Below, piece after piece: positions 18,673 to 24,530 of a stretch of DNA of 36,989 nt (positions are counted from its first letter, which is position 1; each line of letters opens with the position of its first letter). The DNA comes from Methylothermaceae bacterium (GTDB taxonomy: Bacteria > Pseudomonadota > Gammaproteobacteria > Methylococcales > Methylothermaceae), in assembly GCA_026984375.1 (NCBI GenBank), contig JALSSF010000179.1, positions 1 to 36,989 on the forward strand, in the 5' to 3' direction. A program made the position numbers and the translations under genes. The notes beneath the pieces were generated by a model. That model was given only the letters and a program-made list of their open reading frames with translations, had not been told where the DNA came from and made no database searches.

Positions 18673-19413
18673 ATGAGCGGACGGATTCTTCTCATCGACG
18701 ACGACCCCGATCTGGGTGTCATGCTGCGCGACTACCTCGGACGGTACGGTTTCGAAGTGGCGGTGGCGGCCACCGGAGCGGCGGGAGTGGCGCGGCTGGG
18801 ACGGGATGGGGCAGATCTGGTGATTCTCGACGTCCGTCTGCCGGACGAGGACGGCTTCGAAGTGTTGAAACGGCTGCGTGTTCGAAGCACCGTGCCGGTG
18901 ATCCTGTTGACGGGGCTGGACGACCATGCCGACCGGGTCGTCGGTCTGGAGCTGGGAGCTGACGACTATCTGGGAAAGCCCTTCGATCCGCGCGAGCTTC
19001 TGGCTCGGATCCGCGCGGTGCTGCGGCGCTGCCGCCGCACCGTTCCGCCTTCCCGCGGGCGAGAATACCGTTTCGCCGGTTGCCGCCTGATCCCGGAAAC
19101 CCGGGAGCTGATCCTCGCCGACGGCGACCGGCGCCGGCTGACCCGCAGCGAGCTGCGGCTACTGCTGGCCTTCCTGGAACATCCCGGCCGGTTGCTCACC
19201 CGGGAGCGTCTGCTGGAATGCTGCCATCCCCACGGGGATGCGGTCTTCGACCGGGCCGTCGATGTCCAGGTGCTCCGCCTGCGCCGCAAGCTGGGCGAGG
19301 CCGGCCGGCTGATCGTCACCGAGCGCGGCGCCGGCTACCGCTTCGACACCGGGGTCGAAGTCATCGATCAATGTTTGCCCGGCGCCAGCGGCACGCCGCG
19401 CCGTTCCCAGTGA
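18673..19413 (+). CDS. OmpR-family two-component response regulator
   Basis: Start MSGRILLIDDDPDLG at 18673; receiver motifs DDD, LVILDVRLPDEDGFEVL, LLTG, GADDYLGKPF; C-terminal winged helix (RAVDVQVLRLRRKLGE...VTERGAGYRF). Confidence 0.93.
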   Translation: MSGRILLIDDDPDLGVMLRDYLGRYGFEVAVAATGAAGVARLGRDGADLVILDVRLPDEDGFEVLKRLRVRSTVPVILLTGLDDHADRVVGLELGADDYLGKPFDPRELLARIRAVLRRCRRTVPPSRGREYRFAGCRLIPETRELILADGDRRRLTRSELRLLLAFLEHPGRLLTRERLLECCHPHGDAVFDRAVDVQVLRLRRKLGEAGRLIVTERGAGYRFDTGVEVIDQCLPGASGTPRRSQ

Positions 19414-19757
19414 ATGTAGGCTTCCAGGGCGATCATTTCGTCGCTATCGAGGCCTAACGGCTTGCCTTCCAGAGGATTTTGCAGGCACCAGTTGATCATC
19501 TCCCGCAACGTGGCCACCTTGCCGAGCTGCTTCTGGAACTTGGGATAGGTTTCCGGATGGGTGTTGGCACCGTTGGGATGGCACTGGTCGCAGGAGACGT
19601 TGTTGCTTCCCAGCGGGCTGTGGAACAGCTTCTCACCCCGTTCCATGACCTTCATGTATTCCGCCTTCCAGCGTTTCAGGTCTTCCTCGGTGAACTCGTC
19701 TCCCGGTGCCGGGACGGCCAGGGCGGCGAGCATCAGCCAGACGGGAATGCGTTTCAT
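19368..19757 (-). CDS. Monoheme c-type cytochrome with SoxA-like C-terminal pattern
   Basis: Signal peptide; GEKLFHSPLGSNNVSCDQCHPNGANTHPETYPKFQ...REMINWCLQNPLEGKPL. Confidence 0.8.
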   Translation of the reverse strand: MKRIPVWLMLAALAVPAPGDEFTEEDLKRWKAEYMKVMERGEKLFHSPLGSNNVSCDQCHPNGANTHPETYPKFQKQLGKVATLREMINWCLQNPLEGKPLGLDSDEMIALEAYIHWERRGVPLAPGKH

Positions 19758-19773: not shown

Positions 19774-20847
19774 TCAGTAATGGAACTGCGGGGGAATGCG
19801 TTTGTCCGGATCCTGGTATTTCAGGTCCACCGGGTGTTTGAGCTTGAAGTCGAACGCCACGGTGCGGTTCTCGTTCAGCCACAGCTGATAGTGATTGGTG
19901 ATCGCGCCGCTGTCGAGGTCGAGAATGTCCCAGCCGGTGCCGTCGCGCTCGTGGAAGGGATCGGCGCGGTTCATGAACACGGTCAGCTTCGGCACCTGGT
20001 TGGGTTTTTGCACGTAGCTGACCGGATACGGCCAGGGCCAGGCGGTGGCCATCATGGCGTAGAAGGTGATGTTGCCGATCTGGTTGTAGAGCACCTGGTG
20101 GACGTGGCCGTGCAGGACCGTGACCCGGTGGAAGCGTTGCAGCAGTTTCTGCACCCGTTCGGCGTCGTCGGTCCAGAAGTTCCAGGGCTTGAAGATCTTG
20201 TAGAGGGGCGAGTGGGACAGCACCACCACCGGAACGTTGGCGTCGTACTTGGCCAGGTCTTCCTGCAGCCAGCGCAATTGGGCTTCCCCCACCAGGAACG
20301 GCGATCCGTGAGGATTGTCCAGGCGGGCCATGTTGGCCATCCGCTCCTCAGCGGTCGGCCAGCGGGCGATCCAGTCCTCGTAGGTGAGGATACTGTTGAG
20401 GACCACGAAGTGAACCCCCTTGTGGTCGAAGCTGTAATGGAGGGGGCTGATCTTGTCCTCCCAGTACCGGCCCATGTCCAGGTAGAAGTCGTGCTCCCCG
20501 ATGACCCACTTGATGGGCGGGCGCAGGGCTGACAACAGTTCGAGGCCGTGATCCAGTTCCTCCCGTTTGCCCAGTTGGGCCAGATCGCCGCCGTAGACGA
20601 CGAAGTCCGGTTTCGGCTCCATGAGGTTGACTTCCATCACCGCCTTGCGCAGTCCCTGATCGAAATTGCGGGTGAAGCGGGTGCCGCCCAGGTGGGTCAG
20701 GTGGGAGTCGGAGATGTAGGCGAAGGTGAAGGATTCGTGTTCGGCGGGCTTGGTGCCCATGCCGAAACTGATTTCCACTAGGCTGAAGGGCAGAGTGGCG
20801 CCCAGGCCGGCCAGCCCCATCCCTTTGAGAAATTGTCGGCGTTTCAT
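19774..20847 (-). CDS. Tat-exported metallophosphoesterase
   Basis: MKRRQFLKGMGLAGLGATLPF Tat-like signal; calcineurin-like motifs YISDSHLTH, VVYGGDLAQLG, GEHDFY, VVLSHSPLY, VLHGHVHQV. Confidence 0.9.
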   Translation of the reverse strand: MKRRQFLKGMGLAGLGATLPFSLVEISFGMGTKPAEHESFTFAYISDSHLTHLGGTRFTRNFDQGLRKAVMEVNLMEPKPDFVVYGGDLAQLGKREELDHGLELLSALRPPIKWVIGEHDFYLDMGRYWEDKISPLHYSFDHKGVHFVVLNSILTYEDWIARWPTAEERMANMARLDNPHGSPFLVGEAQLRWLQEDLAKYDANVPVVVLSHSPLYKIFKPWNFWTDDAERVQKLLQRFHRVTVLHGHVHQVLYNQIGNITFYAMMATAWPWPYPVSYVQKPNQVPKLTVFMNRADPFHERDGTGWDILDLDSGAITNHYQLWLNENRTVAFDFKLKHPVDLKYQDPDKRIPPQFHY

Positions 20848-20851
20848 GCGC

Positions 20852-21961
20852 TCACCTCCCGGTCGTTGCGAAACGTGAACTGGTGAGAGATTTGAGGAAG
20901 GCCACCAGATCGGCCTTTTCCTGGGCGGTCAGCCCCAGCGGACGGATGCCACCGTCGAGCATGGGGTTGTCGAAACCGCCTCGGTCGTAGAAGTCCACCA
21001 CCTCCTCCAGGGTCTTGAGGCTGCCGTCGTGCATGTAGGGGGCGGTCAGGGCGATGTTGCGCAGGGTCGAGGTCTTGAACTTGCCGAGGTCGCTCACTTC
21101 CCCGGTGACGGCGAAACGTCCCAGCTCGGACAGCTCCTGCTGGGAGAGGACCGCCTCGTCCACCGGTTTGCCGGCGGCCTTGGCCTTGCGGAAGGCGGCG
21201 ATGATCTCTGGCAGGCGGTCGGCGATCCGGTCGAATCCCACCCCCAGGTTGTGGAAGTCGTTGTCGGTGAACAATGCCGTCGATGCCTCGATCACGTGAC
21301 AGCTCACGCAGCGTCCCTTGCCCCGGAACACCGCCAGACCGCGCACCGCCGCCGGTGACAGGGCATTCTTGTCACCGCCGTACAGGTAGCGGTCGAAGGG
21401 GCTGTCTCCGGCCACCACGGTGCGCTCGAAGCTGGCGATGGCCCGGGCCACGTGGTCGATGGTGATCTGCGCCGGTTTCACGCCGAAGGCGCGTTCGAAC
21501 GCCTGCCGGTACGCCGGATCGCTCCGGACCACCCCGACGATGGGATCGTGGCTTTTCAGGCCGTGTTCGATGGGATTGACGAAGGGGTCCTTGCTCTGGG
21601 CCTCCAGGGTGGGACGGCGGCCGTCCCAGAACTGGGTGGTGTAGTAGGCGGCGTTGATGACCGTCGGGGCGTTGCGGGTGCCCTTCCGGCCGCCGATGCC
21701 CTCCGACACCGGCAACCCGTCCTGGAACGCCAGCTCGGGCCGGTGGCAGTGGGCGCAACTGATGGTGCCGTCGGCACTGAAGCGGCGGTCCTCGAACAGC
21801 TTTTTGCCGAGGACCGCTTTTTCCAGGGTCAAGGGGTTGTCCGCCGGTACCGGTACCGGCGGCAGCCCCAGCAGGTCGCGCTTTCCGGGTAGACGCACCT
21901 CCGCCGCACTGACGGCGACGGTCAGGCAGAGCCCGGCTACGGTCGCGGGAATCGGTTTCAT
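20852..21961 (-). CDS. Diheme cytochrome c peroxidase / MauG family protein
   Basis: Two CXXCH motifs (CAHCH, CVSCH); family pattern GKKLFEDRRFSADGTISCAHCH...NAPTVINAAYYTTQFWDGR...FTDNDFHNLGVG...TLRNIALTAPYMHDGSLKTL. Confidence 0.92.
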   Translation of the reverse strand: MKPIPATVAGLCLTVAVSAAEVRLPGKRDLLGLPPVPVPADNPLTLEKAVLGKKLFEDRRFSADGTISCAHCHRPELAFQDGLPVSEGIGGRKGTRNAPTVINAAYYTTQFWDGRRPTLEAQSKDPFVNPIEHGLKSHDPIVGVVRSDPAYRQAFERAFGVKPAQITIDHVARAIASFERTVVAGDSPFDRYLYGGDKNALSPAAVRGLAVFRGKGRCVSCHVIEASTALFTDNDFHNLGVGFDRIADRLPEIIAAFRKAKAAGKPVDEAVLSQQELSELGRFAVTGEVSDLGKFKTSTLRNIALTAPYMHDGSLKTLEEVVDFYDRGGFDNPMLDGGIRPLGLTAQEKADLVAFLKSLTSSRFATTGR

Positions 21962-21971
21962 CGGCGCCCCC

Positions 21972-22046
21972 TCAGCGGTGATGAATGTACAGGGTGACTT
22001 CGAAACCGAGGCGAAGGTCGCGGTAGGCGGGTTTTTCCCAGATCAT
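21972..22046 (-). CDS. pqqA: PqqA-like precursor peptide; not in ORF track
   Basis: Manual translation MIWEKPAYRDLRLGFEVTLYIHHR*, 24 aa; matches the PqqA pattern (M.W.KPA..DLR.G.EVT.Y) with Glu-X3-Tyr at E16/Y20; GAGGAGGAG RBS 8 nt upstream. Confidence 0.92.
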   Translation of the reverse strand: MIWEKPAYRDLRLGFEVTLYIHHR

Positions 22047-22134
22047 GTACCCATCTCCTCCTCAATAACGGTTGGACACGGCTACAGGCTAAACCCTGCC
22101 GGTTACCGGAGAATTGCGGAAAGACGGCGAAATG

Positions 22135-23622
22135 TTACCGTTGTAACGGTACCTGCCAGGGAAACCGGATGCGGAAGACGGTTCGGCCGGGGCGGCTTTC
22201 CACCTCGATGCGGCCCCCGTGGGCGTGGACGATGCGTTCGACGATCGCCAGCCCCAGGCCGCTGCCGCTCCCTGCCGGCTTGCCGCTGGCGAAGGGCTCG
22301 AAGATCGTCGCCAGTCGCTCCGGGGCGATGCCTTCGCCGTCGTCGGTTACCTCCAGCAGCACCCCTTCGGCCGTCGCCGTCAGGGACACGGTGATTTCCC
22401 CGTCCCCGCCCACCGCATCGGCGGCGTTGCGTACCAGGTTGATCACTACCTGCTGCCATTCGCCGGGTCGTCCCGTGACTTTTCGTTCCGCCGGAAGACG
22501 ATCGTCGAAGCGCAGTCGCACCCGGCTCGGCAGGGCGGAGCGGACGAAGTCAAGGGCCTCGGCCACCACCGCGCCCGGTGCGAATCGTTCGCAGCGGCCG
22601 CCGCCGGGTCGGGCGAACTGGAGCAGGCGGGCGGCGAGTTCCCGTCCCCGGGCGACGATGGCTTCGATACGACCGAGGGCGTCGGTGGGCGACCGGCCGG
22701 CCTCGAGCTGTTCCCGGGCCAGCACCGCGTAGCCCTGAAGGCCGGTGAGTAGATTGTTGAAGTCGTGGGCGATGCCGCTGGCCAGGGTGCCGAGGGCTTC
22801 CATCTTCTGGGCCTGTAGCAGTTGCCGCTCGGTTTCCAGACGCCGGCCCATCTCCGCCTGCAGCCGTCGATTGGCCCGGTGCAGCCGTGCCAGGGTGACC
22901 AGCAGATAGCCGAGGAACGCCAGGGCGGCCAGATACAGGCCCAGGCGGAAAGCGTCCGCACGGCGCTGCAGCCGTGTCTGGGTCGCCAGGTGAACGTCCG
23001 CCAGGCGCCGGGCGACCGCTCCCAACGGGGTGTTCAACAGCTCGCCGAGGGTCGCTTCCAGACGGGGAAGCCGTTCCAGGATCAGCCGGACGTGGGCGCT
23101 CAGGGAATCGAATTCTCCGCCCGTGGGCAGGTGGGACAGCTGCAGTGTCACTTCCCGTCGCCGGCGTTCGTCGGGATGGCGCAGAAAGCGCAGCAGCGCC
23201 GCTCCCAGGGCGGTGAGCGCCGGATGGCGGCGGGCCAGCTCTTCCTGGCGGTGGACCACGTAGGCCAGGGAATTGCGTACCAGGGCGTTATCGCTCTTGA
23301 AAGCCTCCAGGCGTTCGCGTTTGTGCCGTGCCAGCAGCCGCAAGACCGCCACCTCCGGCGCCAGTTCGTCGGCCGCTGCGGCCAGTGCCCTCAGGTCGGC
23401 TTCGATGGCGCGGATGGCGGCGTTGACGGTGTCGTAATGGGTCAAATCGCCGTGGCGCAGCCGCAGCAGATCCCGGTTGAATCCGGCGTCGTGAAGGCGC
23501 AGGGCGGTGAGGGCGGCGGCGAAACGGGCGGCGCCGGCCGCTTCCAGGTCGGCGAACCGGTATAGGGTGGTCACAGCGCCCAGAACCAGAGCCAGCAGAA
23601 TGCCCAGTCCTAGGGATTTCAT
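22135..23622 (-). CDS. Sensor histidine kinase with DAHL-like sensory region
   Basis: Start at 23622; two TMs; periplasmic segment with [20 protein letters not shown] (DAHL-domain-like); [20 protein letters not shown] His box; N box [21 protein letters not shown]. Confidence 0.9.
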
Positions 23623-24530
23623 CGCGACGTTTCCTCGGCATTCCACCGCCCCGTCAGGCTGTGGAGGAAAGCGACGAGATCCTGGATTTCCGCTTGCCTC
23701 AGGCGGATCCCCAGTTGCAGCTCCGCCATCAGGGCGACCGCCTTTTCCAGGGTCTTCACCCGACCGTCGTGGAAGTACGGAGCGGTCAGAGCCACGTTGC
23801 GCAGGCTCGGCACCCGGAAGACACCTCGGTCTTCGGGACGGCCGGTGACGGCGAAGCGTCCGGGATCGTCGCCGGGATAGCGGCCGAAGACCCCCAGTTT
23901 CTGGCGCAGGTTGCCGCCCACGTTGACCCCCTGGTGACAGGCGCTGCAGCCGAGACGCTTGAACAAGACGTAACCGCGGCGCTGGCGGGGCGTGAGGGCC
24001 TCGGTGTCACCGCGCAGGAAACGGTCGAAGGGGGCGTCGGGGGTGACGAGGGTGCGTTCGAAGGCCACCAAAGCGGCGATCACCGCCGCCTCGCTCACGC
24101 CGTCGTAAAGCCGGTGGAAGGCCGAGGCGTAGTCCGGATCGGCTGCCAGGCGCGCCAGCACCGTCGGCCAGTTCACCTGCATGTCGCGCTGCAGCGCCAC
24201 CCGGGCCTGATCTTCCAGGGTGTCGAGATCGCCGTACCAGTGCAGGTAATGGTTGTAGCGGGCGTTGAACACCGTGGGGGTGTTGTGGGGATGGGGGCCG
24301 GTGGGGATCGGCGGCAGAGGACGGTCGTCGTCCCCACCCCTGTCGAGGCGGTGACAGTGGGCGCAGCTCAGGCGGCCGCTGCCGCTGAGGCGGGGATCGT
24401 GGAACAGGCGTCGTCCCAGACGGGATGCCGGTGTCGCCGGTGGCTGTGTTTCCGGCAGCGGCAGGATGGGTTCGGCGGCGTGGGCGGTATCGATCAGAAA
24501 CCCGACGAGCAGAAGCAATACGCCTCTCAT
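23619..24530 (-). CDS. Diheme cytochrome c peroxidase family protein
   Basis: Start MRGVLLLL at 24530; CAHCH and CSACH motifs; VPSLRNVALTAPYFHDGRVKTLEKAV. ATGA overlap with the downstream histidine kinase. Confidence 0.9.
   Translation of the reverse strand: MRGVLLLLVGFLIDTAHAAEPILPLPETQPPATPASRLGRRLFHDPRLSGSGRLSCAHCHRLDRGGDDDRPLPPIPTGPHPHNTPTVFNARYNHYLHWYGDLDTLEDQARVALQRDMQVNWPTVLARLAADPDYASAFHRLYDGVSEAAVIAALVAFERTLVTPDAPFDRFLRGDTEALTPRQRRGYVLFKRLGCSACHQGVNVGGNLRQKLGVFGRYPGDDPGRFAVTGRPEDRGVFRVPSLRNVALTAPYFHDGRVKTLEKAVALMAELQLGIRLRQAEIQDLVAFLHSLTGRWNAEETSR

Follow-up and report, generated by a model that had tools for sequence, protein, structure and literature searches.

An extra pqqA gene with a candidate operator of its own heads a MauG/MbnH-type operon in Methylothermaceae

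The window (the whole stretch of DNA analysed, 36,989 nucleotides) carries a second pqqA gene, pqqA2, which is conserved in several species of the genus, is the first gene of an operon encoding a MauG/MbnH-type enzyme, and follows a palindromic candidate operator unique to this gene cassette; the cassette is present or absent as a block, and a complete pqqABCDE set lies elsewhere in the genome. A sensor kinase, a response regulator and the conserved candidate operator, which were absent from the first-pass annotation of this DNA, suggest that pqqA2 is a conditionally regulated extra copy. It is probably a working pqqA gene that supplies precursor under a specific condition, its product being processed by the single PqqD/PqqE set of the cell. 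PQQ is a vitamin-like cofactor for which PqqA is the precursor peptide, and the Methylothermaceae group considered here consists of hot-vent, methane-eating bacteria.

Identity of pqqA2 and its canonical counterpart

Translation of the minus strand from 22046 to 21972 (a 75-nt ORF; pqqA2, 21972..22046) gave the 24-residue peptide MIWEKPAYRDLRLGFEVTLYIHHR followed by a stop codon, and the plus-strand reading of the same interval was unrelated. Ordinary gene finders overlooked this short gene. The peptide scored above the thresholds of both the Pfam PqqA profile (PF08042; 39.4 bits, cut-off 21.1, E = 5.6e-10) and the NCBIfam equivalog TIGR02107, 'pyrroloquinoline quinone precursor peptide PqqA' (41.4 bits, cut-off 20, E = 8.7e-11), so that by family thresholds pqqA2 is a genuine PqqA. 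The Glu-x-x-x-Tyr pair expected in a peptide of 20-40 residues was found at E16 and Y20, intact in all five orthologues; in Acinetobacter PqqA, changing this E to D or this Y to F abolishes PQQ (PMC2294125). A Shine-Dalgarno-like GAGGAGGAG (22055..22063, minus strand) lies 8 nt upstream of the ATG, and a purine-rich site was also seen ahead of the start codon in each of the four other orthologues. The 24-residue PqqA-like peptide, its diagnostic E16 and Y20 and its ribosome-binding site, all proposed in the first-pass annotation, were thus recovered. No relatives of the peptide were found in the PDB, and no signal peptide was found on PqqA2.

The same annotation had proposed a genome search for pqqBCDE and further pqqA copies. 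Over 240 contigs (2.49 Mb), the PqqA search returned pqqA2 (E = 1.3e-8) and only one other match, the canonical pqqA at C34:15862-15918, which is followed in order by pqqB, C, D and E on contig C34; PqqD/PqqE and PqqB/C are therefore encoded in the same cell, and a PQQ-dependent methanol dehydrogenase is encoded as well. Given the two PqqA matches, the complete pqqBCDE and the methanol dehydrogenase, the peptide is the product of a second pqqA in a PQQ-proficient methanotroph. The statement that no pqqB, C, D or E lies in the 37-kb window proved correct: the neighbours of pqqA2 are a kinase gene and a di-haem enzyme gene, and pqqB-E of this genome follow the other pqqA. As the canonical pqqABCDE is on another contig, pqqA2 is an extra, "orphan" pqqA; the earlier use of that word holds for its distance from pqqBCDE, but not for the genome, which has a full canonical set. 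Two further candidates were rejected, namely a relic peptide in a PQQ-lacking genome, because pqqABCDE is complete on C34, and a dedicated second PqqE, because nine genus members had a single full-score PqqE match each (PqqE of G005 is split over two contigs).

The comparison set comprised ten genomes of the genus (labelled G000-G009), including the cultured Methylomarinovum caldicuralii IT-9 (G003) and M. tepidoasis IN45 (G009) (PMC10950024). An intact pqqA2 was found in five of them (G000, G002, G003, G004 and G007), in the same position in all five species, directly before the MauG-type gene, here MauG2; in IT-9 this position is at 1.37 Mb of AP024714. The five peptides share LGFEVTLYI[HY]HR, and the canonical copies read FGFEVTMYIYNR; a scan of the collection for DNA of the GFEVTLYI(Y/H)HR type retrieved only two records, both from Methylothermaceae. 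Canonical PqqA (PF08042, TIGR02107) and PqqA2 are alike in length, in the W-[EQ]-K-P...DLR-x-GFEVT-x-YI frame and in Glu16/Tyr20. However, the F, M and N of canonical Methylococcales PqqA are replaced in PqqA2 by L13, L19 and H23 (fixed F13L, M19L and N23H), and whereas canonical pqqA adjoins pqqB-E, pqqA2 does not and has its own candidate operator. Pairwise pN/pS among the five orthologues was 0.10-0.25 (pS 0.19-0.93, pN 0.04-0.18); these low ratios, with pS up to 0.93, imply purifying selection on the amino-acid sequence of PqqA2.

Operon, two-component system and candidate operator

Along the minus strand, the order of a cytochrome c peroxidase gene, a sensor kinase gene, the promoter region, pqqA2, MauG2, a phosphoesterase gene and a cytochrome c gene was kept in five genomes. 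pqqA2 opens the series pqqA2-MauG2-phosphoesterase-cytochrome c, and its stop codon precedes the MauG2 start by 10 nt, which bears out the earlier view that it heads a redox-protein operon. Profile scans assigned MauG2 (20852..21961) to the di-haem MauG/MbnH-type enzymes, the next gene (19774..20847) to the calcineurin-like phosphoesterases, with a Tat-like signal whose match fell just under the cut-off, and the last (19368..19757) to small monohaem cytochromes c with a SoxA/TsdA-like domain. Convergent with the cytochrome gene at the far end is an OmpR/VirG-type response regulator gene on the plus strand (18673..19413), which is conserved with the cassette in G002, G003, G004, G005, G007 and G008, 59-71% identical over most of its length (the G004 contig holds only its end). 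On the other side of pqqA2, a sensor histidine kinase with a DAHL domain and a VirA-like kinase core was recognized by profile scans (22135..23622, minus strand).

Residues 48-328 of MauG2 align to MauG 10-297, so that Tyr325 falls on MauG Tyr294, a ligand residue (PMC7567364). By this alignment MauG2 would have the tyrosine ligand on the second haem that marks MauG and MbnH, and it resembles MauG, MbnH and BthA (6e1c) in having two CxxCH haems and a tyrosine at that position. It scored 224.3 of the 443.85 bits required by TIGR03791 and 270.7 of the 362.85 bits required by TIGR04039; being below both the MauG and the MbnH equivalog cut-offs, it was filed as MauG/MbnH-type and as neither one. 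Its setting also differs from that of MauG and MbnH, since no partner substrate protein (MbnP, MADH) was found in the operon among the eight proteins scanned. MauG2 is presumably periplasmic. The di-haem peroxidase of the CCP type (23619..24530, minus strand) has Met268 at the place of MauG Tyr294 and matches di-haem cytochrome c peroxidases (e.g. 1eb7, 9qdt), which share the methionine, over nearly its whole length; unlike those, it shares its operon with the gene of a DAHL sensor kinase.

Upstream of pqqA2, a palindrome of the general form GTTAC(C)N3GGTAAC was found, here GTTACAACGGTAAC (22134..22147, minus strand), which overlaps the stop codon of the kinase gene. A second conserved half-site, GGTAAC (22102..22107), lies 32 bp from the first GGTAAC, and 10 nt after it comes a -10-like TAnnnT box, here TAGCCT (22086..22091), both on the minus strand; this wider promoter could be aligned in seven genomes. 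The exact 14-mer pattern GTTACMRMSGTAAC occurred five times in the ten genomes (once each in G000, G003, G004, G008 and G005), every time behind the kinase gene of the cassette, and at the corresponding position G002 and G007 had GTTACC-N3-GGTAAC, a fuller palindrome. Its association with the local kinase and regulator genes makes the palindrome look like a dedicated operator, to which the regulator would bind. No consensus sigma-70 promoter was found at pqqA2, as would fit an activated promoter, and neither the window nor L076 contained an RNA element that reached the Rfam gathering thresholds.

Presence, decay and possible roles of the cassette

G008 has kept the kinase, the regulator, the operator and the enzymes, and its pqqA2 has decayed (L078 6795-6870): the remnant reads PHGQNPLFSIPRLGHTAVFIIHHR, lacks a start codon and has lost Glu16 and Tyr20, although 35-40 of its 75 bases match the orthologues, against 30-35 for the best of 2,000 shuffles. 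The operator of G005 is followed by unrelated transport-type genes, and its enzyme operon is on another contig, which reflects either a rearrangement or an assembly fault. Since pqqA2 was lost in G008 and other genes follow the G005 operator, pqqA2 is dispensable. G001 and G006 carry the enzyme operon with no kinase, regulator, operator or pqqA2 beside it, and about twenty genomes from other Methylococcales families have MauG2-phosphoesterase-cytochrome c (about 55-69% identity) with no accompanying pqqA2. The sister species M. tepidoasis IN45 lacks the cassette as one block: between matching flanks, about 30 bp (G009:C1 near 2075475-2075500) stand in place of the roughly 5.9 kb that run from the regulator through the peroxidase in IT-9 (L034 4939-10795). 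Kinase, regulator and operator thus occur together, and enzyme operons with no adjoining two-component system (G001, G006, other families) have no pqqA2 there; this distribution indicates that pqqA2 goes with the two-component system and not with the enzymes. A remnant of a TauE-type gene borders the cassette in IT-9, and conservation of the trio formed by the MauG/MbnH-type enzyme, the phosphoesterase and the cytochrome c extends across Methylococcales families.

We infer that pqqA2 is expressed, that the regulator binds the palindrome, that PqqD/PqqE process the peptide, and that PQQ demand is tied to the MauG-type operon. Under precursor supply, the reading we favour, a signal would activate the DAHL kinase, which would phosphorylate the OmpR-type regulator; this would then bind GTTAC(C)N3GGTAAC...GGTAAC and switch on pqqA2-MauG2-phosphoesterase-cytochrome c. 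PqqA2 would stay in the cytosol, where the only PqqD/PqqE of the genome would cross-link Glu16 and Tyr20, and the canonical PqqB/C would convert the product to PQQ for the methanol dehydrogenase or another PQQ user, so that PQQ output would rise whenever the MauG-type operon is on. The main weakness of this reading is that the cassette has no gene for a PQQ enzyme, together with the loss of pqqA2 where the enzymes stay; nor does the presence of pqqA2 follow how many methanol dehydrogenases a genome encodes.

The cassette might instead use the PqqA2 product itself: the MauG-type enzyme, the phosphoesterase or the kinase would take the cross-linked peptide, or PQQ, as a substrate, a cofactor or a signal. 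The invariant position of pqqA2 directly before the MauG-type gene in five species, the tyrosine ligand that MauG2 shares with cofactor-making enzymes of the MauG/MbnH type, and the fixed sites at which PqqA2 departs from canonical PqqA (F13L, M19L and N23H could reflect a different role for PqqA2) are in line with this, but we consider it unlikely: the enzyme operon occurs without pqqA2 in G001, G006 and the genomes of other families and with a dead copy in G008, PqqA2 has no signal peptide and is presumably cytosolic whereas MauG2 is presumably periplasmic, and no dedicated pqqD/E is present. In its strictest form, this reading makes PqqA2, or PqqA2 after cross-linking by PqqE, an input dedicated to the cassette, in that the MauG-type enzyme and the DAHL kinase would use or sense a quinone derived from the peptide. 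This form is quite improbable; if true, it would mean a PQQ-related cofactor or signal system outside the PQQ dehydrogenases. A low probability is likewise given to pqqA2 being a redundant duplicate that serves no function today and is in the course of being lost, as the decay in G008, the missing copy behind the G005 operator and the missing cassette in IN45 might suggest, since the frame is intact, with a ribosome site and under purifying selection, in five species that include distant pairs (pS 0.8-0.9).

The very short length of pqqA2, its first place in the presumed transcript and the 10 nt to the next start codon would also suit a leader ORF whose sole part is to adjust how the operon is translated or transcribed, its likeness to PqqA being a relic. 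A leader peptide is very unlikely, however, because selection acts on the amino acids, with many synonymous changes and Glu16/Tyr20 kept; moreover, G008 has kept the operon with a pqqA2 that is no longer intact. That the frame is a chance ORF, antisense to something else, has a probability close to nil: no support for it was found, and it was ruled out by the PqqA family E-values of 1e-8 to 1e-10 and by conservation. Returning to precursor supply, the cassette suggests that these cells can make extra PQQ on demand. Here an orphan pqqA occurs together with a presumptive sensor and regulator of its own and a near-unique operator, and of two cultured sister species IT-9 has the block and IN45 does not; this makes the purpose of orphan pqqA genes directly testable.

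Stand-alone pqqA copies in other genomes

Extra pqqA copies away from the biosynthetic operon, called orphan and responding differently to conditions, have been described in Methylovorus MP688, Hyphomicrobium FJNU-6 and M. extorquens AM1 (PMC9851590, PMC11317620, PMC6520949); PqqA supply is reported as rate-limiting where there are five copies, and the orphan copies of M. extorquens respond to lanthanide supply (both PMC11317620). In the class sample, 25 of the 52 pqqA-bearing genomes had at least two copies, with up to nine, and about 15 had a copy with no pqqB, C or E within 4 kb (some flanks end at contig ends). Stand-alone copies being common and already published as orphan, the kind is known and the setting of pqqA2 is new: in the portions of those sources consulted, none of the copies of MP688, FJNU-6 and AM1 is described as part of an operon that combines a MauG-type enzyme with a two-component system and an operator. 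Among about 40 pqqA neighbourhoods from multi-copy genomes of the class sample, a MauG-like gene within 4 kb was found only in L093, in a different setting, and pqqA linked to both a MauG/MbnH-type enzyme and a dedicated two-component system was not found elsewhere in the genomes examined. The cassette would thus tie the supply of PQQ to an enzyme of the MauG/MbnH type, which was observed in none of the other genomes examined.

Several other arrangements were observed in the survey. An extra pqqA lies about 1.4-2.5 kb from an XoxF-type methanol dehydrogenase gene in L041 (G030; Methylococcales) and L038 (G019), and L091 and L110 (G269, G384) carry a stand-alone pqqA flanked on one side by a cytochrome-b561-like gene and on the other by a histidine kinase gene paired with a response regulator gene, a further instance of an orphan copy adjoining a two-component system. 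A second type of PqqA, which ends in CDLRLGFEVTAYVYVR, was found with its own pqqE (and pqqD where read) in L093, L097, L103 and L116 (G270, G283, G311 and G490); with no pqqB or pqqC alongside, these copies form a separate, pqqADE-type operon, and the MauG-like gene of L093 lies about 2.4 kb upstream of such a pqqA on the same strand. The nine copies were found in the 2.6-Mb genome G309, some of them in tandem.
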